DNA of 64,000 nucleotides, from contig KV918876.1 in NCBI GenBank assembly GCA_002049455.2, forward strand, positions 1 through 64,000, given 5' to 3'. The translations under genes and the position numbers were made by a program. Positions 18,750-36,811 of this stretch are shown here, piece by piece (within the stretch, counting starts at the first letter, position 1; every line of letters starts with the position of its first letter). Source of the DNA: Porphyra umbilicalis. Its lineage: Eukaryota; Rhodophyta; Bangiophyceae; Bangiales; Bangiaceae. The notes under the pieces were generated by a model. That model saw nothing but the letters and a program-made list of their open reading frames with translations, had not been told where the DNA came from and made no database searches.

Positions 18750-19170
18750 TGGGGCCGTTTTTGGAATGCAACGGACCTTTGTCCAAATAACCGAGGCTGA
18801 CGATCATACGAGCGGCTTCTATACGGCTGTCGGAACGCGTCGGGTGTTGTAAGCGTCTACAGGGAATTCACAAAAGCGCACAAAGGTGGGGAAGTACAAG
18901 CACAACGGACACGGTGGGAGACTTGGGATGGCCAGGGGGAGGGACAGAGTGGAATGCTGAAGGCGCTGGGGAGCAGCGACCTAGAGTGCGTGCATGTGCC
19001 GGAGCGCCGGTCGTCGTTGCCTTGTCGCACCAACAACCACACGGCAGCATCTCCTCGTCTCAAGAGTTGATAGTGCAATTTGGGTACACAACTACGCGTA
19101 TGATCCGGAGACGACAGAGGCGCCACCAAACTGACCGCCCACCACCAGACATAACCCCGCTGCCGACGAC
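18750..19170. other. Intergenic, nothing recognised
   Basis: Mixed-composition sequence between the Nup155-like fragment and the third unit remnant. No gene, RNA or repeat recognised. Confidence 0.4.
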
Positions 19171-19760
19171 CCGATGATCGACACTTTCACCCAGTGATCG
19201 ACACTTTCACGCAGTGACCGACACTTGACCCCAGAGATTGACACTTTAACCCAGTGATCAACACTTTGACCGATGGTACCGAACTTGAGGCAGGTTGTAG
19301 ACCACTTTGAAATTGTATTTAAGACTGCGCGGGCGGCTGCTTTTCAATTGGCGCGACTCGACGCAACTACCGATTCGACGGCAGCAACCGCGACGGTGTC
19401 GCCTGGCGAGTCGGCGCTCTCACACTCGTGCCCGGCGGTGGTGGTGGTGGAGACGCGCACGTCATGTTGATGGGTGTCGGTGGGTGTCGGTGGGTGTCGG
19501 TGGGTGTCGGTTGCTGTCGGTGGGTGTTGGCGTGGGGCCCTTCCGCCACCGAGCGCCCGAATGCCGGTGTTCGGTCGTTCCCGAGACGGCCGCCCCGTAC
19601 ACTCGGATGCCGCAATGTCCTCATTGTCCCCATTATCCTCCTTGTCCTCCTTGTCCGTTTTCTTCAATTTCCTCATTGTCCTCATTGTCTGTTTCCTCAT
19701 TGTCCACATTGTCCTGGTGTTCCTCATCGTCTTCATTGTCCCCGCACCCCCCCCCCCTCA
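19171..19760. repeat. Third, decayed piece of the repeat unit
   Basis: It contains iteron array D (19176-19276, with variant units such as GACACTTTCACCCAGTGATC), the conserved flank with TATTTAAG at 19316, a stretch matching the unit around CCGCCACCGAGC and CCGAATG, and a degenerate TCCTCATTG tract (19617-19745). The parts between them in the full unit are deleted. It is clearly older than the two full copies. Short GGGTGTCGGT repeats at 19467-19530 are private to it. Confidence 0.75.
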
Positions 19761-20641
19761 CCAGGTATGGTGGGGGGTCTGTAGTGCAGCGGCGCCACCC
19801 AGGCGACCGACACCAGCCGTGTTGGTCCAAATTCTCACCCCACACGACCGACCACCCCCACCGCCACGACGACTCGTGCGGCCGGGTTTCATCCATGTCG
19901 GCGCGTTCAACACCAGGAAGGAGGGGGTGTTTCGGCAAGGTGGTCGCACGCCCCGGTGGGATGGGCGTGGGGTCGTCGCAGCGCTGTGGCTGGGCCCATC
20001 TGTCGGACCCGTGGGACCTGTATGGCGCGCATGTGCTCTATGCGGCGACGCCGCCGCACCGCAGCGGTCGGCAAGACGTCGTCCAGGCGTCTCCATGCTG
20101 GCCAACGGTGGCGTTCAACGCGCCACACCCCTTCTGTCCGTGACACGCCCGCGCGTATGACGTCACAATCTTCCACACACCACCCCCGCGGAGGGGGGGG
20201 GGGGGGGGGCGGGAGGGGGGACTCGCGGTGCCCGTTCGTCCGTAAATTGTCTGCTCTCGCCGTCGGGTGCCGACCCACCGGGTGCCGACCCGCCGGCCCA
20301 CCGCCGAGCTTCTCCCACGGCCGCCGGTGCCCGCATGGCGGCCTGTGGGTACACCCACCTGCACGAGGCGGCGGCGGCATGGCGCGTGAAGCCGAGGAAA
20401 GAGGAGAGCGCGGCGGGAGTGCCTGCACGCACGAGCCGGCGGCGGCGTGGCGCGTGGAGCCGAAAAGGCAAAAAAAAAAGAAGGAGAGCGCGGCGGGAGT
20501 GCCTGCACGCGAGGGTGTGTTTGTGTCGTGCGCTCGGCCGGCCCGCAACCAGCTCCTAGACTGTATCGCAGGATGGTGTGGTCCCGCCCGTGTCGTGTGG
20601 CGGTCCGCGGCAAGCCAGCCACCGCTACCCGTGCCGTTTAC
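19761..20641. other. Intergenic with short tandem duplications
   Basis: No gene recognised. A block of about 70-75 bp containing GGAGAGCGCGGCGGGAGTGC and TGCACGC is repeated at about 20368-20436 and 20437-20511, the second carrying an A10 insertion. Two copies of a GGGTGCCGACCC motif lie near 20265-20295. This is probably the 5' flank of the Fanzor element. Confidence 0.4.
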
Positions 20642-20649
20642 TATAAAAG
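20642..20649 (+). promoter_or_regulatory. TATA box of the Fanzor gene
   Basis: TATAAAAG lies 160 bp before the chosen Fanzor ATG at 20802. A start site about 30 bp downstream would exclude the in-frame ATG near 20654 and favour 20802, which also has a better context (GCCATGG). Confidence 0.5.
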
Positions 20650-21599
20650 GTGTGATGGGTGCTGGCGCCGTGCACAACCATGCGCCCACAGGCCTGGCCG
20701 CCGTGCCGCCCCGCGCCGACACCCCCAGCGGGCGGCAAGGGCGCGCCACCGCCTTGAGGACGTCAAGCCCCCCGCCCGCCCGTGTGCGCTCGTCCCCCGC
20801 CATGGACGACCGTTCGTCGACCGACGAGGAGGAGGCGCCCGGTACGTCGACAGCGCTTCGGGCGCGTCGCAGCGGCCACTGTCCCACGACGCGGCGCCCC
20901 ACGACGACCACCAGTTTGGCGACAGCGCCGCCCCGCGAGGCGACGGCGAGCGGCAACGACAATGGGGACAATGGCGGGGGTGTGGCTGGGCCTGTGGGCG
21001 CAGACCTCGACGACGACGACGAGGTCACGCGCCTCGGTACGGCCGGCGAGGACGCGGCAATCAAGGCGGGTGGCCACCTCGACAGCGCGCGGCAGAGTGC
21101 GGCGTCTGCCGTGCGGTCGGCGACGGTGGAGGTTGCCGCCGCCGTCGCCGCGTGTGAGGCGGCCGGTGATGCGGGGCCGGTGGCTAGCTTGCGTGCCGCG
21201 AGTGCCCTCCTGTCCAAGCGCCTCGCATCAAAACCGGTGCACGCGCGAAGTGCCGTGCTGCAAGCCGTCGCCGCGGTGACGGTGCCGCCGCCCCGGCCAC
21301 CCGCACCAGACGAAGGTGACGAGGGCGCCGCGGCGACCCCCGCCAATGCCGACACAAGAGCCGACGCCTCCGCACGGGTGGTGTGCAGGCGCCTGTGCGC
21401 GCGAGCGCGTCACGCGGCGGGCAGCGTCTTGTCGGCGGTCAAGGGCCTGATCCCCATGGTGCAGCCCGACGCGGGGGACCACGCAGGCGACGACGATGGC
21501 CACGGCAATGGTGGCGACGCTGGCGCCACGGCGCGCGGCGGCGGCGGCACGCGTGGCCGCCAGCGTCGATGCGGCGGCTGCGGGGCGACGGGGCACAAT

Positions 21600-21607
21600 G
21601 TGAAAAC
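21600..21607. repeat. Target-site duplication, left
   Basis: GTGAAAAC, repeated exactly at 23704-23711 on the other side of the hAT-type element. It fits the nTnnnnAn target preference of hAT transposons. Confidence 0.9.
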
Positions 21608-23703
21608 CAGGCCCTACCATGGGTATCGATTTTGGTCGTGGATATTTTCCATCCGAACATCTTGGGACAGAGTATTTTCGCTCTTTCAGACACGCAACGT
21701 GAGTATTGGTATATGAAATATCCAAGGATGTGGGTATCTGATACTCACTCATCACATATAATCTTGAGGCGGGGCTACTTTGCGAAATGGGCGATCACTT
21801 CTTGTCGAGATCTGACCTGGACGATTTCTATGATTTTGGACATCATCGCAAGCGCTCGGCGAACGCGGGGATTGGTCGTGCTGACAGACTAGAGGGACAG
21901 CCTCGTACCGTGAAGCCTTCGTGATGTGGCCCATCACAGTTGCCCTGACCACGTCGATGTACCAAGACCCTCTGCAAAGATGGCTGTTGCACCGAACGAG
22001 GGCAGAGAGTGGGGATGTGTGTCCAGGGCGCGCCGCAGCATCCAAGGAAGAGTCTCGCAGCGCGTCCCGGGGGGAGGCAGCCTTTATCAAAATCCGAAAT
22101 GGTTGGTCGCCGTGAGGGGGGGACGTGGTATGCCGACGTTGGAACGTGATTCTCGGCCGGGAACGAGCCGAAGGCAATTCCGGGCACGTGCGTGCAATAC
22201 CCTGGACTTCAAGGCGGTGGCGCGCTCGGCGACGCATCGACACCGGGAACTCGGTCCGGCTCCATAGCCGCGAGCGCGCGCCGGGGCACGTACAGCCACG
22301 TTGCCGTGGCGGGCGGTGCAAGGTCCGGGTAGACGGGTGCCGCCGCCGCCACCGCAGCGGCGGCGGCCCACCGGCGTCGCGCGATGCCCACGGGAGGGGC
22401 CGTCACTCCGCCGCGCAGCACATCTGCGCATGGCGGACGGGGTGGTCAACACGGCGCACGAACGGGCGGGTGGGACCGACCGCGCGCGACGAGGCGCCTC
22501 TTACCGCGCCACCCGATGGCGTCAAAGACCGCTGAAGAGCCGCCGCAGCAAAATCCGGCGCGCAGACACGATCACCCGCGGGTCCTCATGGGCGCGTAGA
22601 ACCCCGGAAGTCTCTGCGCGTGGGTTCCGGGCGCCACTCTGGTCGGTGGGGGGGGGCAGGGGGGCAGGGGCCGTCCGGGCCCTGTGTCTTATGTAATATG
22701 ACAGTCCTTCTCTGCTACGTATCTCCATTCTCCGTTAGCGTCATTGCGAGTCTTCGAATGCTGACGCGCCCTCAGATCACTGAGGACACGAATGCAAACT
22801 GCCACCTCTGAAACGGAGAGCAAGTCTCCTGATCGAAGTAACTGTGAGCATCACTACACTTTGAGAGAATCCTGTCCTCAAGGCCGGAACATTTAGCAAT
22901 CTGTTGCACAAGGGGGTGGAGGGGTCGACCGCTCGAAGGACAGGGGTCAGGGCTGCTGACCAGGCGTGGCAGACAGAGGCCAAAAAGACGGGCAAGACAA
23001 TGTAAAGGACGCAAGAAAGAAGAAGCAATACGCATTTTCGGAGAGAGGCCACTGCGCAGGCGCGAACATAAAAGAAGGAGGGGACAGCTGCCGGTGAGCG
23101 ACCTGGGGGCGAGCCAGCCGCGGCTTCGAGGGCGACAGGCACCACCCGAGATCTAGCATTCAGAAGTGCGGATGGCACCCACTTCTTTGTGCTGACAATT
23201 GGCGCTCAGTCTGCTTGAGCTCACGCGACATACCGTACCGCAGCCTCAGCACATTGTTCGTGTCCTGATGTGGAGCATGACGGGTGCAGAGCAGAGTGGA
23301 CCTGATGAAGTATTTCGCGCCGACATCCCAGGCGTCCTTGTTCAAACTGATGCTGGACATAGCCCGCGGAGGGAGCCGTGATAGCAATCAGAGCTTTGAT
23401 TGGCCGAGCTGTGTGTCTCACAGAGCTGTACTCCCATGCGGCCACTTTCTAAGCCCCAGTTTCGAGCGATTCGCTTGACCAGACAGCGAGGATGTTTGCA
23501 GCTTCGCGGCGCGTTGATCTGTAGGACTGTAAGCTTCTTCTTACACGAGAGATACTCATTTCTGGATGTCGCATGAGTATTTTCTTGTATGCGTTCCCAA
23601 TCATGGGTGTAATCGCCCACATGCTACTGGCTTTTGAGTATGGGTCCCGATACCTAAATACTCATGGGTATACTCAATCAACAAATACCCATGGTAGGGC
23701 CTG
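21608..23703. mobile_element. Non-autonomous hAT-type DNA transposon (2096 bp)
   Basis: The ends are perfect 19-bp inverted repeats: CAGGCCCTACCATGGGTAT at 21608-21626 and its reverse complement at 23685-23703. Flanking 8-bp copies of GTGAAAAC are the target duplication. Eight-base duplications and a CAG-start terminus point to the hAT superfamily. Near both ends, TGAGTAT/ATACTCA-like motifs cluster in both orientations, like transposase-binding subterminal repeats. The interior is less GC-rich than the neighbourhood and has only short frames with no transposase motif, so mobility would depend on a transposase elsewhere. The insertion splits the Fanzor gene. Confidence 0.9.
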
Positions 23704-23711
23704 GTGAAAAC
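23704..23711. repeat. Target-site duplication, right
   Basis: Second GTGAAAAC, partner of 21600-21607. Fusing across one copy regenerates the codons V-K-T-C of the zinc knuckle. Confidence 0.9.
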
Positions 23712-26700
23712 GTGTCCGGCTGACGCTGCCACCAAGGCGGCGCACGCGGAGCGTGGCGAGGCGGCCAAGGCGGCCAAGGGCGCCAAGGCCGGCAGCGGAA
23801 ACAACAAGTGCAGTGCGTGCCACGCGCGTGGCCACACCCGGGCCAGCGCTGTGTGTCCGCTGCGAGCCATCGCCCACGGCTGGTCGGGCCACAATGCAGA
23901 CCGCGGGCGCGACTTGGGGTGCGTCGACCAGCACCGCATGACGGGGGAGGTGACGACGACCGTTTCCGTGTCGGTCGACCGGTTTTTTGGTGTCCGACGA
24001 CGGCTGGCGCCAGGGCGGCCGGCAAACTCTTTGCCCCCGACGGGGCGCCCGCCTACGACGTCGGGCCGGCGCGCGCCGACGGGGACCGCCGCCGCTGTCG
24101 CAAACGCTGCCGCGGGGGCGGCCGCGCTGACCGAGTTGGCCACGGCACAGACAAAGCATCTGCGGCTCGTGTCCATTGTCATGGACGGCACGATGCGGTA
24201 CCTGCTCGAGCGCGTCGATGGTGGTGGCGGCGGTCAGGGTGCGGGCGGGGGCGGCGGCGGTGGCGGCGGCCACCGCCGGCGCACGCTCGACGAGTTTATC
24301 GCGGCCGTGCCGGCGTCGCTGACAAGCAACCACGGGCTTGCCTGGAAGCAGGTCGCTTCGACCGTCTCTTGTCGCGGCGTCGGTGCGTTTGGCGGCGCCC
24401 CTCGGCGGGCGTGCGTCGATTACTCGGGTAGAGGCGCACGCGTCAAGCCCCGCGGGGACATCAAGGCCGCCGCCCAAGGCGACGGCGACTACTCTGCCTT
24501 TGTGGCGGCGTCGGCGGCGGTGGCAGACGCGGTGACCGAGCCAAGCCAGTTGCCGTGCAGCACGCTGCTGCCGAGTCCGGGCGACACGTTTGGTTGGGCC
24601 GCCGTGGCGACGGCTTTTGAAAACCACTATATGACGCTCGTCACGTCGGCGGTCAAGACCATTGCCAAGTGCATCGTCCACGACGTCTACCCGCAGGCCC
24701 CCGGCGGTCTCGACGGACAGCGCCGCGCGGCACTGATTGCGGCCCTCGTTGCCGGCCTGCAAGCCGCCGACGGCACGCGCCCGCCGTCGTTCAAGTGGCC
24801 GGCGGGCAAAGTGTCTGCGGCGGATGGGGCTGCCATGGCGACCGGGGCCACGCTGGCGTACGACACTGTGCTCGTCTACGCCGGTGGTGACGGTAGGCGG
24901 CGCTGTCTCCTCCAGCTCGACACGTCGGCTCTGCGACAGCGGCCGCTGCACGTCTACCCGCTGCTCCACTATGCCCAGCTGTTGTGCATCCGTGCCGGCA
25001 TCGAGGCGACTGACACGTCACCCGGCCGAGCCGCCACGTGCACCGCGTACGAGCGTGTCGGCGGCGCGCTGCTCCGCCGGCGCCTGGCGTCCGCCGGGGT
25101 GTCGCTGCCAGCGTCGACAACCGACGGGCTGTTCATTCAAACGCTGCTCCGCCGCGCGCGCATTGTCGGCTCCAAGACGGTGGTCGGGCCCTCCATCGTG
25201 TCGGACGGTGTCGGCGTGCACTTTACGATACGGCACCCCGCAACCGCCGCGTCGACGGCGGCCGCTCGGCAGGCGCGTCGTAAGGCTGCCAGTGACAGTC
25301 GTGGGGGGGGGGGGGGCCCACCGAGACGGCGAGCGTGCGGACGCAGCTTGACCGCATGGCGTTTTCGCCCGACGTCGTCAAGGAGCTGACGTTTGTTGGA
25401 TGGGACCCGGGCGTCGCGTCGATTGTCGCTGCCTACTGCCCCGGGGCGGTGCCATTTGTTCAGTCACCTGCGCCGCACCTGCACGCGTATCGGGCGTACC
25501 GGGCGCTGCGGATTGCGGGCGACGCGCTCGCGCGGGCGGCCATGGCCGCGACCGCCGCCGCTGAGTGCCGCGTGCGGCGGGGTGGTCGGGTTTTGCCGAC
25601 CGTCGACGCGCTACACGCCAAGTTGGCTGACGTTGCGCGCGCGGCCAAGGCCACCGCGGCGGGCCTTCCCGTCGGCGGCGGTGACGCGGTGAGCCAGACG
25701 ACCAAAAAGCGCGGCCGTGGCGCGCTCGGCGCGTCGACCGGGGCGGCGGCATCTGCCCCAAAGCGGACTCGTACAGATCTGGTGGGCCTGCCGGCGGCCA
25801 CGCCCGCGGCACAAGCGTCTTTGCCCCCTTTGGAGCACGCATCGACAGTGCCGGCAGACGCGGTGGACCCCCCCCCCGCCAAGCGCCGGCGGTACAAGCA
25901 GCCGGCCTTTGGCGACGAGTGGCTGACCCCGATTCAACGGCAAGAGGTGGCCCGCAAGCGGGCGACGAGCGCCCCCGGCCGCCGCCGGGCCATCCTCACG
26001 CGCATGCGCGCCACCGCGCACGCCACGATCAATGGCGGCAACGTCCAACCGTGGCACCTGTCCAACCACGTGTGTGTGTGGGTGGGCGAGGCGGCCCTAT
26101 TCAAAGAGGCGGCGCACGCGACGGCGGCTGTCACGGCCAAGACAGAAGCGGCGGCGCACGCAGAGGCGGCATGGCGTGCAGTGTCGGTCGACAGTGGGGC
26201 ACACGCCGCGTGCGTCGTGCAGCGCGCGGCGCAGGACAAGCGCCAGACGGCGGCGGCATTGCGCACGGCAGAGCGAGTGGCGGCTGCGGCGGCCGCTGCT
26301 GCACCCGCTGCGCCCCCGCAGCTCGGCGCGCCCGGCACGTCGCTGCCGTCGGCCGACCGCTTGCGCGTGTTGTGTGCCGCACTCAAACGTGCGGCCGCCG
26401 CCGGAGCGCGCCGGCGCGTGCGCGTCCCGCCCACTGGTGCGACGCTGGTCGTCTCCAAAGGCGCGTACCGCGAGGCGACGGGCGCCGGTATGACGAGGCG
26501 CGCCGAGGCGGCAGCGGTGGCGGAGTGGGCGGCGGCACACCCAGGCGTGCCGCGCGAGTCACTGACGGCCGGGTGCTCCCTCAAGGTCACGACGTGGGGC
26601 GCGTGGGTGGTGGCGGCCACTGTGCGCATTGCGCGCACCTACACAGACGCCTATCAGGCGGCGTACGCGGCGGCCGCGACGTACGGTCAACGCAAGGCGC

Positions 26701-27687
26701 GGCTACACGCCCTCATCCAGCGCAACCGATACGCGGCGGTGCTGGCGCGCCGCTTGACGGGCGGTTTGCTGCGGCGCACGGTGGACGGTACCAAGGCGGT
26801 TTTGGCGATTGGGCGGTGTCGGCCGCGCGCCGGCAGCGTCGACCTCGTGCGGCGCATGGCCAAACACGTGCACGTCGTGTACGTGAACGAGCACAATACG
26901 AGCCTGACGTGTGCAGAGTGCGGCCACGGCTTGTGCAACACGTACGTGTCGCCCGACTCGCCGGTCGACCTGACACCCCTCAAGGCGGCAAGCAGTTACG
27001 CACATCGCGCGTCGGCGTCGGCGGCCAAGCGCGCCTCGCCCCTCCGCGGCGGCCGGCGCGCGCGTCGGGGTGTGACGACCGGCAGTCGGTCGGGCCCACG
27101 CGACGGTGCGGCTGCCCAGCGCGCCAAGGAGCACGCAGAGGCGGTGCGGACAAAGGTGCTGCAGGCGATTGCGGCTCACGGCAAGTGGGCGTTTGGGACC
27201 GACCCGCTGGCGCTGTTGGGGGTCAAGCTGTGTACCAACGTCGCCTGCCCGGCTTCGTACGTCGGGCGAGACACCAACGCGGCGCGCAACATGTCCAAGA
27301 TTGCCATCAAGAGCATGCAGGGTCGGAGCATCTACCCCCACCTCCGGGGGTACACCGTGTCACGCGCGCCACCCCAGGAAGACCCTGTACAGGCGGTGAG
27401 GCACGCGGCTGCGATCGACGCAAGTACCTACGAGACCGGCTACGGGTGGACGCGGTGTTCACCCACGTCGTGGGAGCGTTGGCGCCGACCTGTCGTCGCC
27501 GACGCGCCGGTCGCGGAGGCGGGGACGGCCCCCACGGCCGTGCCAGTGGCGGCGCCAACGGTGCGGGTAGAGGCGCTGGGTGTGGTGGCAGACGGGGCGC
27601 ACGACGCAGCTGCTGCGTCGGCAAGCGGTGACCTGGCGACGAGTAACGTCGGCCAGATGGCTGCTGCCAGCCCCGCGCCAGCCGTGG

Positions 27688-27766
27688 GGCACAGCCACTC
27701 GTCTCCGAGCCGCCTCGAGCGGGTAATCGTAGACTGTTCACCAGGTTCATCTCGTGGGGTGTGAAT
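27688..27766. repeat. 79-bp direct repeat, left copy (Fanzor 3' end)
   Basis: Identical over 79 bp to 35908-35986. It covers the last ~25 Fanzor codons and the TGA stop at 27762-27764. The two copies bracket the retrotransposon and are best read as its target-site duplication. Confidence 0.9.
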
Positions 27767-27830
27767 TGGGTGCTGCTCATCAGGCCCGGACCTAATGTCC
27801 GATAACTACGAAATGAGGCCGAGGCCCCAC

Positions 27831-30800
27831 TCAACCGGAAACTCGGGCCAAAGCAGTTGGGGCGTCCAAAGTGGCCCGCCCCCTCGCGTCACACCTCGAA
27901 AAACCCTCACAAAGCATGCGCGCGTTATAGCGCCAAATGATAGCGGACGCGTCCGTAAGCAGCGACGCGAGCGCGCGCGAGCGCCCCGGACCACCGACGG
28001 CCGTTCGCAAAAAGTCCGCGGACGCGGGGCCCACGCGGCCGAATACCTCCCACACCAGTGGGGTGAAGACAGCGGGCGGGTCGGCGGCGGGGAGGCGCGG
28101 CGCGTACTTGCGCACCTTGCGCGCCTCGCGCCCCACCGCCGCCACAGCCACGGAAGGCCGGGCGACCACGTCCGCGACGACCTTGTCGGTGAAGACCGAC
28201 GCGACAGCGACGTCGCCCCATACCACCCCCCCGGTCTGCACGCGCACCGCCCGCACGTCCGGGCGAAGCGTCTCAGTGCCGGCACTGAAAAGCGCCGACG
28301 ACGCCTCCACCACGACGTCCCGCCAATGCGGGTGCGCGCGCAGCGCGTCCGCCGTCCGCGCCACCAGCGCGTTGTGGCGAAACGTGGCATTCGAGATGCA
28401 CGAGGCGGCGCTGCACGCCACCAGGAAGTGGACGCCGTACGCGTCCACCGCCGCGCCGCACGCGCACCGGCGCGCCACCGCTGTCCGCGCGACAGGGGGT
28501 ACGCCAAGCCAGAGGCGGGTAGCCATCCGCATGGCCCTCCCGCCCATGGCGCCGGCAGGGCGGCCGGGTGCCGGCAACGCCGACAGCCACAGGCCCGCGC
28601 CCGCCCCGTGTCAGGCGGCGAGCCGCGCAAGGTCGGCATTGTCCGTCAGCGAGGCCCGCAGCCGCTCCAGCGCGGCGAGGTGCACGGGCCCCGCCAGGTC
28701 CCTCTGGGACGGGGCCCGCGCCCCCCCGAGCAGCCGCGCCCAACTCAGCCGAGTCCCCCCCGCGACGCGGAGTAGGCCGGTCGCCGCGATATGGGCGTCG
28801 GCAGGGGGGGCAAGGAGGTCGGGGGCGGTTGGGGGGGGTGCGGGCGCCGCGCCGCACGCGGCGTTCAGGCGGCCACGGCCGCCAGAAGGCCCGGGAGGAT
28901 GGGGAGGCGCCGCCCCGACGGCGTCGCGTCGGCCGCCGGTAGAGCGCCAGCGGCACCAGCAGCAGCCGCGGCGCCCGCAGGAGGGGCGCCCGGCCACGCC
29001 CGGGTGTCAACCTGGGCGCCGGCAGGCGCCGCAGGACCCACCGGGTCGGTGTCCTGCAGGGCACCAGCCAGGTTGGCCAACGCCGGCGCCGCCGCCCTGT
29101 GGCAGTGCACGGCGGCGTCCGCCCAGGACGCCACGACAGCCGCCGTCGCCACACGCGAACGATCGCCAACGCCCAGCCCCCCCATACGAACGGGCAGCGC
29201 GGCGCGCTCGAGCAGCGCCGCGCGCACCTCAGCGCCGTCCGTCGCGTCGCACAGAAGGGAGAGCACCGTCCGACGTACGTCCGCGTCGACGACGGCGGCC
29301 AACGTGGCGCCCGCGTCGGGGGGGAGAGACCGCAGCGCGTACGTCACGCGCGGCCCGGCGCACAGGCGGAGGAGGAGCAGCTTGGTCTGCAGCTCCTCCT
29401 CCGGCAGGGCGACAATCGCCGCCACCCCCGCCGCGTGCTCGGCCGCCATGGCCGAGACGCGCGCCGCCACGAAATCGCGGTTGCCGACAGGGATAGAAAA
29501 TTGCACCACCCCCTCCGACCGCCACTGGGCTGTCAGGTCGGGCGGCGCCGCGGGTGCGCCTGGCGACCACGCCACGCACTTGGTGGGCGACAGCTCCGCG
29601 TCGACGAGCGCCCCAACCCGCGCCGCCGACGCCATCACCCCGCCGAGCCCAGCCACGGGCCCCACCGCGCGCACGTCATCGTGAAATACGTCGATGGCGT
29701 GCGCGGGGTGGAGGCGTGCCAGGCGCAGAAGCACGAGCATTAGAGCCGCGGCGTGGAGAAAGGGCCCCAACGGGTCCCCCTGCTGCGTCCCCCGCTCGAC
29801 GGTGAGCACCCGTCGAGCGGGGGGGGGGGCACCCACTGGGGCGGGTGGGCGTTGTCGTCCTCGCCGACTAGGCCGGGGGGGTCCTCGTCGCCCACTCCAC
29901 TGTCGCCGCCGTCGCCCGCCCCGCCCTGGCCGTCGCGGCCGTCGCCGTCGCCGGCACCGTCGCCGCCGCGCCGCGCCGCCGCCCACCCGTACACCGCCGG
30001 CGGAGCGCCGCCGTACGTCGCCGCCACGTGCGGCGTCAAGGACGGAAAGGCGCGGTCGATGAACGCCCGCGCCGCCGCGCGGGAGATCAGGTTGAACGCG
30101 TTTTTGTAGTCCAGCAGCAGCACCCCCTCCTCCGGCGCCGCCTCCAGCTGGGCCTCCAACGCGTGCAAGAGGCGCTCGCACGCGTTGGGAACGCCAATGC
30201 CCAGCGGCAGCGAAGCCATCAGCGCGGCCGCCGACGCGCGGAGGTCGCGCGCCAGCGACCCCGCAACGAGCTTGCGCAGTGTCTCCGGCATCCCAATTGG
30301 GCGGAGCCTGGGCACCCCGTCAGCGTCGGGCGCCTCCGGCTTCACGAGCAGCAGCAGCTCCGCGCCCGCCAGCGCGTGACTCGCCACCGCGGGCACCACC
30401 GTTGTCGCCGCCGCGGTTGCCAACAGCCGCACGACCCCCACCAGCGCGTCGCGCCCGTCCTCCGCCAGCGCCGACAGGTGCTCCATCCGGAGGCCGGACG
30501 GACCCGGGGCGGAGCCGCGCGCGGCAGACCGGATGGTCGCCACCACCGTCGCCGCCGACAAGCCCAGCGGGGCACCCGCGGCCACGCCGTGCGCGGCGGC
30601 GGCGTCGAGCTCAGGGCTAAACTCGGCCTCGACCGACGCGTTCGTCGCCAGCCCCGGCGTGGCGCGCGGGAAGAGCCGCCGCGCCGCCTGCCAGACGGCG
30701 CCCGTGTGGGGTGCGACCGGCGCCCCTTGCAGGGTGCGCGCCGCGGCGCTGAGGCGGCCGCGCCACACTTGGCGGAGCGCCCGCCGCTGCACGCGTGTCA

Positions 30801-32653
30801 CGCGCGGCCGGGCGCTCGTCGGGCGGACGGGGCCGCCCGGCCCAACCCGCGGGGAGGGGAGGGGGCAGCCGGCGAGTCGGGCGGGGGGGGGGGGAAGGGG
30901 GGAGCGGGTGTGGGGGAGGCGACGCGGGTGGCGCCCCGGCCGCGGGCGTGGGGGCCGTACCCTCAGACTGGGGCGGCTCGCGCCACACACCGACATTGCG
31001 GTCGCGCAACGCGGCCGCAAAGTCCCCGTCGAGCAGCGCGGACACGCGCACCGCGTGACTCAGCGGCGCGGGACCCTCCCCCCTGCCCCGCGCGCGCGCG
31101 GGGACGTGGAACAGAAGGGAGGGGAGGTTCATCACCCACAGCCACGCGGTGGCGTTGCCCGGCTCGCGCCGCACCCAGGAGAGCGCGTCGGCACCCAGCT
31201 GCCGCCACGCGGGCAGCAGAGAAGCTGCGACGTGGTCGGCGGTGCGCGCGCCGGACGCCACCAGCGCCGCCCATGAGTCGGGGGTTGGGGCCTGCAGCAG
31301 CAGAAAAGCCCCGCGCCGCCGCGCCCACTCGCTCGGCTCAGCCGAAAACATTGTTTGGGCTGGGGGGGAAGGGGGGGCGGTGGTGCCAGCTGCCGCCCCG
31401 TCGACGGCGGCGCCGCCCACAGCCGGGTGCGCGTCGTCGCCGACGTTGGGCAGGAAGCCCCCCGCGTCGCCCGCCGGCGGCGGCGGCAGGTCGGCCTCCG
31501 CGTCAGGCTCGCGCGGTGGCCGCTCGTCGCACCGCGCCTCGTGCCTCGACAGCGAGGTGCACCGCCGCCAGTCGACGACAGTGCGGTATGGGCGACCGCA
31601 GTAGCGGCACCCGGCCAACCGCAGCGCGCGGACCCACTCCGCCGGCACCGCCGCCAGCTTGTGCGACCGCGCCAGGTGCGCCGGCAGCGTGCGCGGCGTC
31701 ACGGCGCCGCGAAACGTGGTGGTGCAACCACCCACCACGCAGCACGTGCGCGTCGCCCAGCTGGCCAGGTCGGCCGCCGTCGCCGGTGCCGCACCCGCCG
31801 CGGTGGTTGCCGCCACAGCCGCCGCACGACCACCCCCCCCCTGCAGCAGCCGGTGCGACGGGCAGTTGGGCTCGTGCGAGCGCAGGGGGCGATGCCCGGA
31901 CGCCGTCCGCACCACCGAAAACAGGCGGTGGCAGTGCCGGCAGCCCCCCAGCTGCGCCTCCGCGAGGCGCTCGGGCGGCACGTCCACCGCCGTGTGCGCC
32001 GAGCGCAGGTGCTCGACGAACGCGTCGCCCTCCCCCACGGCCGCACCACAGCTGAGCAGCGGGCAGACGCCCAGGGGCGAGGCCGCTCCAACAGCCGCAC
32101 CAGACCCGCCGTCCACAGCAGGAGCGGGCGGCGGCGCGGCAACGGCCGACGCGGCCGCGGCGCTACCCACCGCCAGCGAGCTCGCAATCTCGCGGGCCGC
32201 CAGCGCGGCGGCAGGCGCGCCCGGGCGCGGAGCACACCCCGCCTCGTGCTCCGCCAGCGCCATGCGCGCGGTCGTCGACCGACCGAAAGGAAGCAGGGCG
32301 CCGCAGTGGCGGCAGCCGCGCAGCCGGTTGGCCGACAGCACCGACGCCGGCACGTCAGCGGCCTTGTGGGCGTCGCGCAGGTGAGCGCGGACGCCGAGCC
32401 ACAGCGGGTTGCCCGCGGCGGTCGCGCCACAGCTCGCGACCGGGCAGCGGTGCCCATCGGCCGCGGCAGCCCCACCAGCCGACGAGGCCAGCGGGGGGGG
32501 GGGAACACGAACGAGCAGAAGGAGTGCCGGGGGGAGGGGGGAGGACAGAAGCGCCAGAGGAAGTAGAGCGGGCGGGGGGGGGGGGGGCAAAGGCGAGGTC
32601 ACCCGCGCCGGACGGCGCGAGGGACAGGCCACGAGGGGCAGGGGGACAGTCAC
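27831..32653 (-). CDS. Retrotransposon RT-endonuclease polyprotein (frameshifted)
   Basis: In the first frame (32653-30900) three related ~70-aa modules pair a C-x4-C...H finger with a C-x2-C...H-x4-C finger at residues 70-140, 197-264 and 305-375. A frame change at the G run near 30890 leads to the RT: GSAPGPSGLRMEHL, KPEAPDADGVPRLRPIGMPE and LLDYKNAFNLISR with the first catalytic Asp. A change at the G run near 29820 gives RGTQQGDPLGP and FHDDV, the YxDD-type active site. A last change near 28800-28900 gives the C-terminal domain: CACGAAVDAYGVHFLVAC (CCHC, C-x-C-x9-H-x4-C), RHNALV, RPDV, GDVAV and REARKVRKY, which match the order of motifs in an R2-type PD-(D/E)XK endonuclease. All key residues are present, so the protein could be active if the shifts are sequencing errors. 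Confidence 0.82.
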
Positions 32654-32703
32654 TGTCGTCGGGGGAGGTGGTCAAACCGTCTGAGTACACCGGCCGGGAA
32701 CGG

Positions 32704-35700
32704 TCAGTCCTGTGATTGCGGGGGGGGGCTGCGCCCCGCCGCCTCGCCAGGCCGCGCCGCCCTACCGGGCGCGGCAGCCGACCCACCCCCGGGAGGGGCA
32801 GCGAGTCGCCGCCAGATGAACTCATTTGGCGGCGGCGTCGCTAACGGGGGGGAGGCAGCAGGCGGCGCGACCGCCGGCGCGGTGACGCGAGCCCCGTGCT
32901 CGTATGGTGGCGACACGGCCACAGCCGCACGCGCGTGCGCGTTGGACGCGGAGCAGAGGGCGCTCGCGGCACGCCAACCTTCAGGTTGGGGCGCCGCGGG
33001 AACCCCCTCCCCGACATCTGACTCGCTGGACACGCGTAGGGGACTCGGCACGCTGGCAGCAGCGTGCGCCGCTGCCGGCGACGCAGCGATGACCGGCCCC
33101 GCAGCAACGCCGGCCACGTGCGGCGGCGCCACAGCGGCAGCGCGCAGCCAGGCACCGCGCGTCCGTCCGGCAATGCCGACAGGCGGCGCGCCGCCCGCAC
33201 AGGCGAGGCGATGCCCCGACGCGGAGTCAGGCGGCGCCCGCACGCGCCGCTTAGCGGCGGGCGTCGGTGGGGGAGCGCGCGCACCAGGGCAGGCGCGCTC
33301 AGGGCCGCCCCCCCCCCACGGCGCAGTCGTCCCTCCCCACGTCGGGGGGAAGGCGCACCATCGCGGCGGCAGCGGCGTCGGCGCCGGCAGCAGCGGCGAC
33401 AGCGCGCGCGGCGGCGCCCCGCGCACGTCGGGCGATGCCCGCGAGGGCGGTCGCCCGCAGGCGGCGCGCGACGGCACCGGCGCGTCGTGGGCGGCCACGA
33501 TGCGCGCGGCCGCCCGCTGCAACCCACGCGCGGTCCTCAGGGCGACGTCCGACTCGGCGTCGAGTCGCCCCTTGGGCGACGGCGACGTCGGGGGGCGGGC
33601 AGAGCCGGCGACGACACCGCCAAGTCCGTGTTGCCGTGGCGGCGGCCGACGCGGCGACGCGCACGCCGCGCGCCTCCGCCGCATCTGCGCGCGCCTCCGC
33701 GGCGGCCGGATCGAGGCGAAGCGGTGGGCGGCCGCGTCAGCGGCCTCCGCCACCGCGCCGTCGGCGACGCGGAACAGCGCCGCCGCCAGCGTCAAAGCGC
33801 CCACAGCGCCGCCCGGCACGCGCCGGACAGCCGCGGCGACCGCGTCGGCCAACGGGGGGAGCGAGGCAGCAGTGCCCGCCGACACGCCGCATCCACCACC
33901 CCGCCCGCCGCAGCCATATGGCGGGCGGCCGCGAGCGAACTGCGGTCCCGCGCGCCAGGGGCGTCGGGGGGTCCGCCGCAATGCGGGGGCTGGTGGGGGG
34001 CGTGCTGCGGCCGCCGGGCGAGGCGGACACAGCAAAATTTCTGCCCGCCGGGGCGAGGCGCGATCCGATCCGGGGGGGGGTCGGTCGCCGTCGTGGCGAC
34101 CACCCGCATCCCGATCCCGGATGCGGGATCGACTGCGTCCCCGTCGGCGCGAGAATTTCCTCGGCCGCCGCGTCATCTTCGGCGGCGGCCGAAAACGTGG
34201 GGGGGGTGGGCGGCAATACCGAAATTTCCGACTGTACGGCAGAAACCGACGCGGGGGTCGAAGCCGCCGGCTGGGAATTTTCGTCTCCCGGCCGGTCGGC
34301 GTCGACCGCCTCCGCGGCCGCCCCCCCTGGGGCGGAACCAGGCGGGCGCCGTCGCCCCGCACCGGGCGGCGCCGCGACGCGGGCGTCGGCCCAGCGGCCG
34401 CCGCCGCGGGGGCACCGCACGGCCGCCCACGCCACCACCAGCACCCAGCTGCTGCACGTACGGGGCGAGCTCCCGGTGCAGCAGCGGGCGGAGGGCGTCC
34501 CGGTGGGCGGGCGGCATGCCCACCCGCTCGTCCAGCGACGCGAGCTTGGCGCGGCGGCGCGCCACGAAAAACGCGCGCGCCACCTCGCGCGCCGCCTCCG
34601 CCGACAGCCCGCGTCGGCGCGGGGCCCCAGCAGCGACGGCGAGAGGGGGTCGACCCCCGCACGAGCGTTAGCGTGGCGGCGGCGGGCGACAGCGCCACCG
34701 CCGCCTCAAACGCATCGGCGTGCTGCGCCAGCAGGCGCACCTCTGCGAGGTCGCCGGCGCGGTCCACGTCGACGACCGCCCGCTTGGGCAGCCCCGTGGC
34801 TCCCGACAGCAGCTCACGCAGCCGCCAGGTGCGCGACTCGCGGGCGACGCCGCGGACGTAGACCGTCCGCAGCGTCACCGGCGGGGGCGACCCGGCGGCG
34901 AGGCGGCGCAGCGCGGCGCCCGCGGCGGTCGCGCGGGCGAGCCGAGCAGCCGCCGCCGCGGCAGCGTCGCCGTCCTTGGCCTTGTTGTCGCCGCCGGGGC
35001 AGCGGCGGCCACCGCCACAGCGTCCTTGGTCTGGCCGCCGCGCGGCGGCGGCCGCCGGCCGCCGGTCACGGCCGCAGGGGCAGCCCCACGCCCGCCGACC
35101 ACCGCGTCGGCCCATGTCGCGGGGCGCGGGCGGGGGGCAGCGCGCGGAACCGTCGCAGGCGCGGCGACGGCGTCCTGGGCAGCCGCCGCCGGGGCGGCCG
35201 GCAGCGGGGGGGGGGGGACCCGCGGGCACCGACGTTGGCGGCGCCGGCGGGGGGCCCGGCGACTTGGTCGACGGCGGCGGGGGCGGCGGCGGCAGCAGCC
35301 GCAGCCGCCACCGCGGGGGGGGAGCGCAAAAACCGCGAGGGGGGAGAGGCCGGCGTCGGCGCCGGCGCCGGTGGGAGCAGCGGCGAGCAGGTGAGCAGCC
35401 ACCGTCGCGGCGGCGGCACGGCGGCGCGCCGCGCGGCGGGCCTTGCGGCCGCGGCGGCCGGGCGGCAGCGGGAAGGTTCCCCGTCGATGGGGGGGGGGGG
35501 GCACCAGCAGCAGGAGCGGGGGGAGCCGGGGGCGACGGGGCGGGGGGGCGGGGCGGTCAGCGGCGGGGGTGGGGGAGCACGCGGGGGTGGGGGGGATAGC
35601 AGCGCCGGCTAAGCCGCTAATAGCGATTAGCGGCGCCGCGCCAGCCAATGAAAAGCGAGAATCGTAAATTGGACCATCCCCAGCCAATCGATCCTCTGTC

Positions 35701-35882
35701 AGATGCGCAACTGTCAGCAGCAGCAGCGTTCGCTTCGACGCCGCCGTCGCGTTCACGGCGACGGCGTCGAGCAACGCCGCGATCGCGCGCGTCGTCGCGG
35801 CGACGGCGGCGGCCCCCCCGGCCGCCGCCGCGTCCATCGCCGCCGCGCCGCCGCGGGGGGGGTGCCCGGACCCCCAACGCAC
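32704..35882 (-). CDS. Retrotransposon 5' coding region (ORF1-like, RRM-like domain)
   Basis: The frame opening at 35882 begins with a helical stretch (AIAALLDAVAVNATAASKRT, then LLTVAHLTEDRLAGDGPIYD). After frame changes in long G runs comes TLRTVYVRGVARESRTWRLR followed by ELLSGATGLPKRAVVDVDRA (about 34890-34770), which reads like a beta-alpha-beta RNA-recognition-type fold seen in many ORF1 proteins. A further segment near 34450-34590 (ARAFFVARRRAKLASLDERV) is basic and helical. The remainder is Pro/Arg/Ala-rich. I infer the nucleic-acid-binding ORF1, but cannot tell whether it is separate from, or fused to, the RT protein. Confidence 0.5.
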
Positions 35883-35907
35883 CCCTCCGCCACGTCACCG
35901 TCTCCCC

Positions 35908-35986
35908 GGCACAGCCACTCGTCTCCGAGCCGCCTCGAGCGGGTAATCGTAGACTGTTCACCAGGTTCATCTCGTGGGGTGTGAAT
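35908..35986. repeat. 79-bp direct repeat, right copy
   Basis: Exact partner of 27688-27766, at an offset of 8220. It carries a second copy of the Fanzor C-terminal codons and stop (35982-35984), now detached from the gene. Confidence 0.9.
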
Positions 35987-35987
35987 A

Positions 35988-36020
35988 GGGAGCTTCGCTC
36001 CTCACCTCTTCCAGAGGTGA
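35988..36020 (+). ncRNA. Candidate Fanzor guide-RNA (omega-RNA) scaffold
   Basis: Directly after the right copy of the Fanzor stop are two stem-loops in a row: GGAGC-TTC-GCTCC (35989-36001) and TCACCTCT-TCC-AGAGGTGA (36002-36020). In TnpB/Fanzor systems the guide RNA scaffold overlaps or follows the 3' end of the nuclease gene up to the element's right end. Before the retrotransposon inserted, these hairpins would have followed the Fanzor stop at once. The structure is visible; the role is inferred. Confidence 0.4.
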
Positions 36021-36811
36021 CTACTGGTTGCGTCTAGAAATGTATTTTCCTTACGCCCGAGATGAATCAGTAGTCTCTTTGTCAGGAACAAACTGTATTT
36101 CAGGCGCCAGTGTGCGTCCAACAGTTCTCTTGTGTTCGATATGTTGTAGTTTCGTGGATTCGACTGGCGATCACACATTGAGACAGTGAGCCCGGTCCAA
36201 TGTATGGATCAAAATGTAGCTGGAATTTAGAAATAGTGAATCGACGTCCAAAGCTGATGTTTGCGTGGCACAGAGAAATACCGGACTGACTTCTCACAAG
36301 CGGTCACTGTCTGCCCGATTGATCCAACTTTGGCCGCAACCTTGCCGATGGATCTGGCCGCGCGATGGAGACCCTCGGCCAAGCTGTGCCACGTTGGCCG
36401 TCTGGATCGTCCGAGCCGTTGGTGGAACGACGCAATATGACACGGATACTGAACCGCCCCGATGAATCGACGCAGGCGTCGTCCCCTGTCGACTACGCCA
36501 CAGACGGCCTCCCGGTGTGATCCGTGAAGCGCGGGGTGAACGGCGCGACTCGGACCCCGTCCGGCGTGTGCCGCCCTCAATTGGGGCCCCGCGTGCCGCC
36601 GGCGACCAACAGCAGAGCGACACCCGAGCGCCGCCGTCGGCCGCGCCGGTCCCCACACACAGCAGCCCTTGGGTGTCGCCGCCCGCCGGTGGTCCATGAC
36701 GGGCACATAAGCGCCGCCGTGCGTCGGCGTGCACGGTTCTCCAACGCCCCCCAGTTACCATCCGTGTGTCGCCCGTCCACACGCTTGCCATCCACAACCT
36801 CTTCCACTACC
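36021..36811. other. Non-coding; likely end of the Fanzor element and 5' flank of next gene
   Basis: Bases 36021-36500 are AT-richer than the surroundings with no frame of interest; the right edge of the Fanzor element should lie here, but I could not find its terminus. From about 36530 the sequence turns GC-rich and probably holds the 5' region of the secreted-protein gene. Confidence 0.4.

Follow-up and report, generated by a model that had tools for sequence, protein, structure and literature searches.

The published Fanzor motif reads D-X(125,275)-[TS][TS]XX-[C4]-X(5,50)-RD (PMC3627910), and a DPG at RuvC-I together with a glutamate placed six residues ahead of the initial CxxC sets Fanzors apart from most TnpBs (PMC10711439). 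The truncated and duplicated geometry of the Fanzor elements of Chlamydomonas has been attributed to one-ended rolling-circle transposition (PMC3627910), and the benefit of a Fanzor to its transposon is discussed as an open question in the account of the characterized enzymes (PMC10432273). Here we describe a Fanzor-bearing mobile element in a stretch of 64,000 nucleotides from the red alga Porphyra umbilicalis (contig KV918876.1, positions 1 to 64,000; G+C content 57–80%), referred to as the window. We conclude that this red-algal transposon, which has a Helitron-type 3′ end, probably encodes a very long Fanzor1-type nuclease whose guide would begin at the 3′ flank. Judged from the sequence, by motif and by selection, the copy in the window is a damaged member of a true, unusual Fanzor family.

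An earlier note, made from the letters of the window alone, had described a Fanzor nuclease with a particular motif set and all catalytic residues, and every one of these motifs was located on the forward strand: GWDPG of RuvC-I (25398-25412), NEHNTS within VNEHNTSLTC (26886-26903, with the displaced glutamate at 26889), CAEC as the first half of the zinc ribbon (from 26910), CTNVAC as its second half (27231-27248), GRDTNAARN of RuvC-III (27264-27290), and SDGVGV (25201-25218), a putative WED motif of Fanzors. The catalytic triad is retained, and the frame closes with a stop codon at 27762-27764 (forward strand). A test pattern (DPG / E-x6-CxxC / C..C..D) built from published Fanzor hallmarks was fitted by a single frame, 25296-27761, among the 225 open frames of at least 150 amino acids in the window, and by none of 20,000 residue shuffles of that frame. 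The note had staked its identification on a Fanzor or TnpB match in this third coding piece, and the Cas12f1-like TNB profile of Pfam (OrfB zinc ribbon, PF07282) does match there with an E-value of 2.1e-4, though at 21.8 bits and thus under the curated cut-off of 26.3. A weak Pfam zinc-knuckle match in the second piece (E 0.0055) is also under its cut-off, and Rfam found nothing in the window. Since long spurious frames are common in this DNA (77 open reading frames (ORFs) of at least 80 amino acids between 18000 and 31000), an alanine- and arginine-rich frame in GC-rich sequence might mimic a zinc ribbon by chance. We give this explanation virtually no credence, as it is contradicted by the shuffle test and by the codon-level selection described below, and as at least 49 matches were found across the genome.

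The genome comprises 83.8 Mb in 665 contigs, of which C665 holds 10 of the 11 phycobilisome matches and is probably the plastid. Scoring of 54 candidates yielded TNB matches at no fewer than 32 places with E ≤ 0.001 and at least 49 with E ≤ 0.05, both counts being lower bounds and the window copy appearing among the latter only; at least 32 matches, the window's own excluded, were marked as above the cut-off. A sample of 22 copies was then assembled from 20 loci, the locus L036 and the window copy, and nine of these were aligned, having been selected because GWDP and GRD.NAA share one frame. None of the nine varies in the DPG, the displaced glutamate, the split zinc ribbon or RuvC-III (because of the selection by GWDP, only the G of DPG is an independent observation), nor do the three acidic residues of the catalytic centre or the four zinc cysteines change. 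The eukaryotic Fanzor identity proposed earlier is supported by these motifs. In L036 the glutamate stands six residues ahead of the first CxxC (E1370-x6-C1377, invariant in nine of nine), and the RuvC-III aspartate lies eight residues past the last zinc cysteine (C1489 to D1497), within the four to eight sought. The zinc ribbon is interrupted by about 100 residues and its second pair is CxxxxC, not CxxC. A Cas12f profile aligns weakly across the RuvC-II to RuvC-III end (E 0.037, over residues 1363-1511, and E 0.032).

Cleaner copies, which the earlier note had suspected elsewhere in the genome, do exist, one in each of two subfamilies: the whole protein is open in L009 (contig C3, 1921 codons) and in L036 (contig C56, 1660 codons), the latter encoding 1636 amino acids when counted from the ATG that matches the start in the window. 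Subfamily A consists of L009 and most other copies, which are 93–97% alike to L009 (86–88% for L011, L027 and L028), and subfamily B of the window copy, L015, L017, L018 and L036, which are ~96–97% alike over the main stretch; A and B are ~83% alike. Between L009 and L036, the ratio of nonsynonymous to synonymous substitution rates (dN/dS, Nei-Gojobori) is 0.35 over 1649 codons, with regional values of 0.33 in the N-terminus, 0.31 in the knuckles, 0.28 in the middle and 0.18 just before RuvC-II, and dN is as low as 0.031 in the region of RuvC-II and the ribbon. The last 85 codons give 0.6–1.1, at a dS of merely 0.04–0.05. These values indicate that the long frame, knuckles included, has been selected as a protein between the subfamilies. 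As a separate observation, dS between L036 and L009 drops from 0.76 (N-terminus) to 0.04 (gene end), over the last 400 codons, pointing either to a recent exchange of 3′ ends or to constraint on this part as nucleic acid; in the last 60 codons dS is 0.025 within A, 0.029 within B and 0.024 between them. We did not take the low value to prove a guide RNA, recent exchange being equally likely.

The first of two N-terminal zinc knuckles has the form CX2CX4HX4C and the second CX2CX4HX6C, each being complete in 14 of the 22 copies. Both are complete in a single frame in nine (L014, L016, L017, L018, L022, L025, L026, L028 and L036), so that the pieces 20802-21607 and 23712-25310, which the earlier note had joined, do stand next to each other in other copies; among the remaining copies, some are without the knuckle region or have other frames there, and L009 has lost the first cysteine of knuckle 2. 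In the window, knuckle 1 starts at 21570 and an insert separates its last cysteine, while knuckle 2 lies at 23809-23856. Neither knuckle was matched by Pfam above the cut-off, and we found no report of a Fanzor paired with a zinc knuckle in the open-licence papers searched. The knuckles would probably hold single-stranded nucleic acid, namely the guide RNA, the protein's own mRNA or a transposition intermediate. The predicted protein would begin with an acidic N-terminus and the pair of CCHC knuckles, and a middle part would lead to RuvC-I. A long insertion would then separate RuvC-I from RuvC-II, which has the displaced glutamate, and the stretched zinc ribbon and RuvC-III would follow. Both the length of ~1600 amino acids and the knuckle pair are unusual, as had been remarked, but they are properties of the whole family and not of the broken copy alone. 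Such departures could also be read as those of a derived Fanzor that is no longer an RNA-guided nuclease and serves transposition as a DNA-binding accessory. The very large RuvC and zinc-ribbon insertions, the lack of a sequence match to solved Fanzors and the weak profile scores would suit this role, whereas the invariance of catalytic acids and zinc cysteines in nine of nine copies, the low dN around RuvC-II and the ribbon and the intact triad of the window copy argue for a nuclease, and we regard an accessory role as quite unlikely.

The proposal of a Helitron-like carrier stems from the 3′ terminus. Two hairpins come after the end of the gene in 20 of 22 copies, and then ACTACTGG and a T; the two without a continuous terminus, the window gene and L015, are both interrupted. 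The first hairpin has diverged in L027 and L028, and L027 has CTGA. A 3′ hairpin followed by ACTA and CTGG fits the CTRR criterion for a Helitron 3′ end, and CTGG followed by T, together with insertion at A|T, is a Helitron signature (PMC3627910). The 26-nt terminus occurs 67 times in the genome at up to three mismatches, compared with 0 occurrences for a backward-pattern control, and 34 of these 67 ends have a TNB profile match within 1.5 kb. Treated as RNA, the last 79 nt adopt a compact branched fold of -30.6 kcal/mol (z -2.2), which 6 of 200 shuffles equalled. Known Fz1 guide RNAs measure 75–150 nt (PMC11423790) and that of GtFz1 overlaps 17 codons of its own gene (PMC10432273), making the Fanzor 3′ end a reasonable candidate for a guide scaffold. 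At the other end of the element, TGGCAGGGTGCCATATAACC was tried as a 5′ terminus and rejected, similar sequence extending upstream at 19 of the 20 listed places (all but C3). Upstream of several Fanzor copies (the L049-L066 set) there is also a sequence ending in ...CATATAACCGGATATTGACTGTA, which recurs where the following DNA differs (e.g. L056, L057, L060-L065), as the terminus of a different repeat family would.

The interval 20802..27764 given by the earlier note does contain one Fanzor copy, but the element is larger: homology to sister copies reaches at least as far upstream as 18757, and the 3′ terminus lies at 36027 (18757..36027, forward strand). The three coding pieces are likewise present, with the correction that the breaks between them have separate causes. 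The N-terminal piece (20802..21607, forward strand) has an acidic start, MDDRSSTDEEEAPGTST, in a start region common to L036, and ends within knuckle 1. It is followed by an insert of 2096 bp (21608..23703) with inverted ends CAGGCCCTACCATGGGTAT and an 8-bp target duplication, GTGAAAAC (21600-21607 and 23704-23711); by these ends and this duplication, the insert is presumably hAT-like. A repeat in L017, also found in L013, L019 and L041, is ~82% like the inner part of this insert (22176-22885). The middle piece (23704..25310, forward strand) carries knuckle 2 and SDGVGV, is collinear with residues 308-819 of L036, and holds what by position is a REC/WED-like region. The RuvC/zinc-ribbon piece (25296..27764, forward strand) includes a G-run (25303-25316), and the change of frame between the second and third pieces falls at or just before this run. 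The linker preceding RuvC-I has a longest G-run of 5 to 17, depending on the copy; from SDGVGV to GWDPG, the frame is kept in 11 of 22 copies and changed in 6, and the remaining 5 miss one of the two motifs. Given this variation and the 11 copies that read through, slippage or an assembly error suffices for the change, and a programmed frameshift was rejected.

Within its tail, the window copy is interrupted by a reversed 8.1-kb element (27783..35907, reverse strand), and ~95 bp from the 3′ end of the Fanzor sequence are duplicated on its two sides. Beyond it lies the detached Fanzor 3′ end (35908..36027, forward strand), in which the ORF end is repeated and followed by the stop, the hairpins at 35988-36001 and 36003-36019, and ACTACTGG. 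The adjoining 3′ flank (36028..36047, forward strand) is where the guide is predicted to start if the TnpB/Fanzor rule applies (PMC10432273). The 8.1-kb element has an ORF with finger-like Cys/His repeats (30617-32653), and its other ORFs look like reverse transcriptase (RT) by eye, with no RT match in Pfam. A 4.3-kb stretch on contig C38, running from the Fanzor gene end into the reversed element, matches the window at 95%, and the junction between Fanzor tail and reversed element recurs with different flanks in L047, L070, L073, L075 and L078; the distance between profile match and tail is in agreement for C38 and C447, and it amounts to ~17 kb on C55 and C288.

Besides long copies, the family has left short, 5′-truncated ones, which reach down to 26–34 bp. 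A 5′ junction was available for eight of these, L043 and seven of twelve further short copies; of the remaining five, four enter the reversed element and L077 leaves the stretch. Exact target duplications of 14, 14, 18 and 12 bp were found within 2 nt of the junction in L043, L067, L072 and L074, respectively, and L069 has an 11-bp duplication with 133 bp of other DNA in between, whereas mismatched flank pairs, used as a control, share at most 5 nt (56 pairs). All five duplications start after A|T, the preceding motif being TTA four times and TGA once. The copies might instead be made by target-primed reverse transcription of the type used by long interspersed nuclear elements (LINEs), with a LINE recognising the hairpin tail and the Fanzor as a passenger; this would yield 3′ ends that are fixed, 5′ ends that are strongly truncated and target duplications that vary. 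The truncation to 26–34 bp, the 11–18-bp duplications and the fixed stem-loop end all agree with this, and candidate RT genes are plentiful (847, of which 150 were scored). Against it stand the CTGG|T end and A|T site, which are a Helitron signature (PMC3627910), and the recurring compound of reversed 8.1-kb element and Fanzor tail in different flanks, which would need very long RNAs. The nearest RT among the 150 scored candidates is 34.6 kb from any of the 67 ends, an argument that is weak because the other 697 were unscored. We consider the LINE explanation possible, if clearly the less likely one, and favor a transposon with a Helitron-type 3′ end.

Several results weigh against the reading of the family as a Fanzor carried by such a transposon. 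On the protein side, TNB scores are under the curated cut-off in all three proteins scanned, and the window copy's own match in the genome scan (E 0.009) is also under it. RuvC-I and the TS motif are 497 residues apart, outside the published 125–275, with all motif elements in order, and the zinc cysteines are lost in L079. No solved Fanzor or TnpB was matched by sequence, a profile search at E ≤ 10 returning three unrelated chains, and AlphaFold2 models from shallow alignments reached a pLDDT (predicted local distance difference test) score of just 31 for the RuvC half (779 amino acids, 11 sequences) and 32 for a 1130-residue stretch (14 sequences). Protein searches gave five relatives in all, 75–86% identical, and a scan of viral contigs confirmed none, so that no deeper alignment was possible. 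Within the subfamilies, dN and dS are nearer each other, as in copies that decay after insertion (codons 1516-1600 were left out of this comparison, one copy, probably L014, being out of register). On the side of the carrier, a search with the 15-nt terminus gave 84 places, among which C82 has CTGA followed by G instead of T. For the diverged tails of L028, folding is hardly or not at all better than in shuffled sequence (z -0.4 and -1.5), and no covariation was seen in the terminal hairpin, whose variants look one-sided by eye. No 5′ end of the element was found within the sequence read, and groups of copies have different regions upstream. Of 28 RepHel matches in the genome, a single one is on the same contig as one of the 67 ends, 111 kb from it; a RepHel partner with diverged ends may exist. 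Finally, three of the eight short copies (L068, L071 and L076) have no duplication, and a scan of 31 ends, for most of which the sequence at issue did not include the 5′ end, found a duplication in L043 alone.

If the Helitron-type Fanzor element works as other Fanzors do, its hairpin end would be transcribed as the guide RNA scaffold, the host flank just beyond the terminus would be the guide and T(T/G)A the target-adjacent motif, and the nuclease would cut the empty site, whose repair would then restore or keep the element. GtFz1 uses the motif TTAAN and cuts 14–17 nt away, and the distances are 16–17 and 20–21 nt for SpuFz1, 17–18 and 9–14 nt for MmeFz2, and 19 nt for NlovFz2 (PMC10432273). 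The range of 9–21 nt across these four Fanzors would accommodate all five duplications (11, 12, 14, 14 and 18 bp). Such lengths are compatible with cleavage by the Fanzor of the element, and with other mechanisms as well. A further step, which we put forward as speculative and rather improbable, is that the 5′-truncated copies are scars of Fanzor-guided homing. A guide from the 3′ flank of a copy would match the empty allele after T(T/G)A, and the Fanzor would cut that allele some 11–18 nt downstream of the motif. The distal end might then use the chromosome that bears the element as template, copying first the 3′ flank and then the 3′ end of the element, where synthesis would halt early, and joining to the proximal end would leave a truncated element with a duplication spanning exactly from the target-adjacent motif to the cut. 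Homing, if true, would explain the filler DNA of L069 and the duplications of the Chlamydomonas Fanzor elements, and would constitute genomic evidence of a role of Fanzor for transposons. Helitron relatives without a Fanzor in Chlamydomonas rarely have target duplications, with one case in 200 for Helitron-1N1_CRe (PMC3627910).

The closest likeness among described systems is to CRe-1, CRe-2 and CRe-3, Fanzor1 elements of Chlamydomonas reinhardtii that are non-autonomous Helitron2 transposons, and that, like the Porphyra family, are algal, have Helitron-type ends and occur in many copies (PMC3627910). According to the same account, they resemble it further in the retention of the 3′ end in almost all copies with truncation at the 5′ end, in target duplications of ~7–19 bp directly after a T-rich motif, and in short captured sequences at some 5′ junctions (PMC3627910). 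The two differ in that the CRe elements insert after TTTT, whereas the Porphyra family shows CTGG|T and T(T/G)A|T; the CRe genes have 5–10 exons, in contrast to a single open frame with added knuckles; and the CRe elements are assigned to Helitron2, whereas no related Helitron was identified for the Porphyra family. Full-length CRe copies are described as being without duplications (PMC3627910). CMe-1A of the red alga Cyanidioschyzon merolae is likewise a multicopy red-algal Fanzor element (~150 copies), but at ~3 kb in total it is too short for a 1636-residue protein (PMC3627910). With the characterized SpuFz1, GtFz1 and PpFz1, the Porphyra protein shares the displaced glutamate of RuvC and a C4 zinc finger in the NUC domain; those enzymes take their guide RNA from the 3′ end and use motifs such as TTAAN (GtFz1), whereas the Porphyra guide is a prediction (PMC10432273, PMC11423790). 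Most Fz1 proteins have 600–700 amino acids compared with at least 1636 here, the RuvC insertion of PpFz1 is ~100 amino acids long, and the catalytic aspartate and glutamate of SpuFz1 (D383, E541) are 158 residues apart compared with 495 in the Porphyra protein (PMC10432273, PMC11423790). The family offers numerous copies with a sharply defined 3′ terminus, together with a predicted position for the guide, a candidate target-adjacent motif and short copies that have target duplications, so that cutting of the empty site would be testable across strains of one alga. At more than double the typical length, with paired zinc knuckles and with large insertions that enlarge both RuvC and the zinc ribbon, the Porphyra protein extends the range of sizes and domains of Fanzors.

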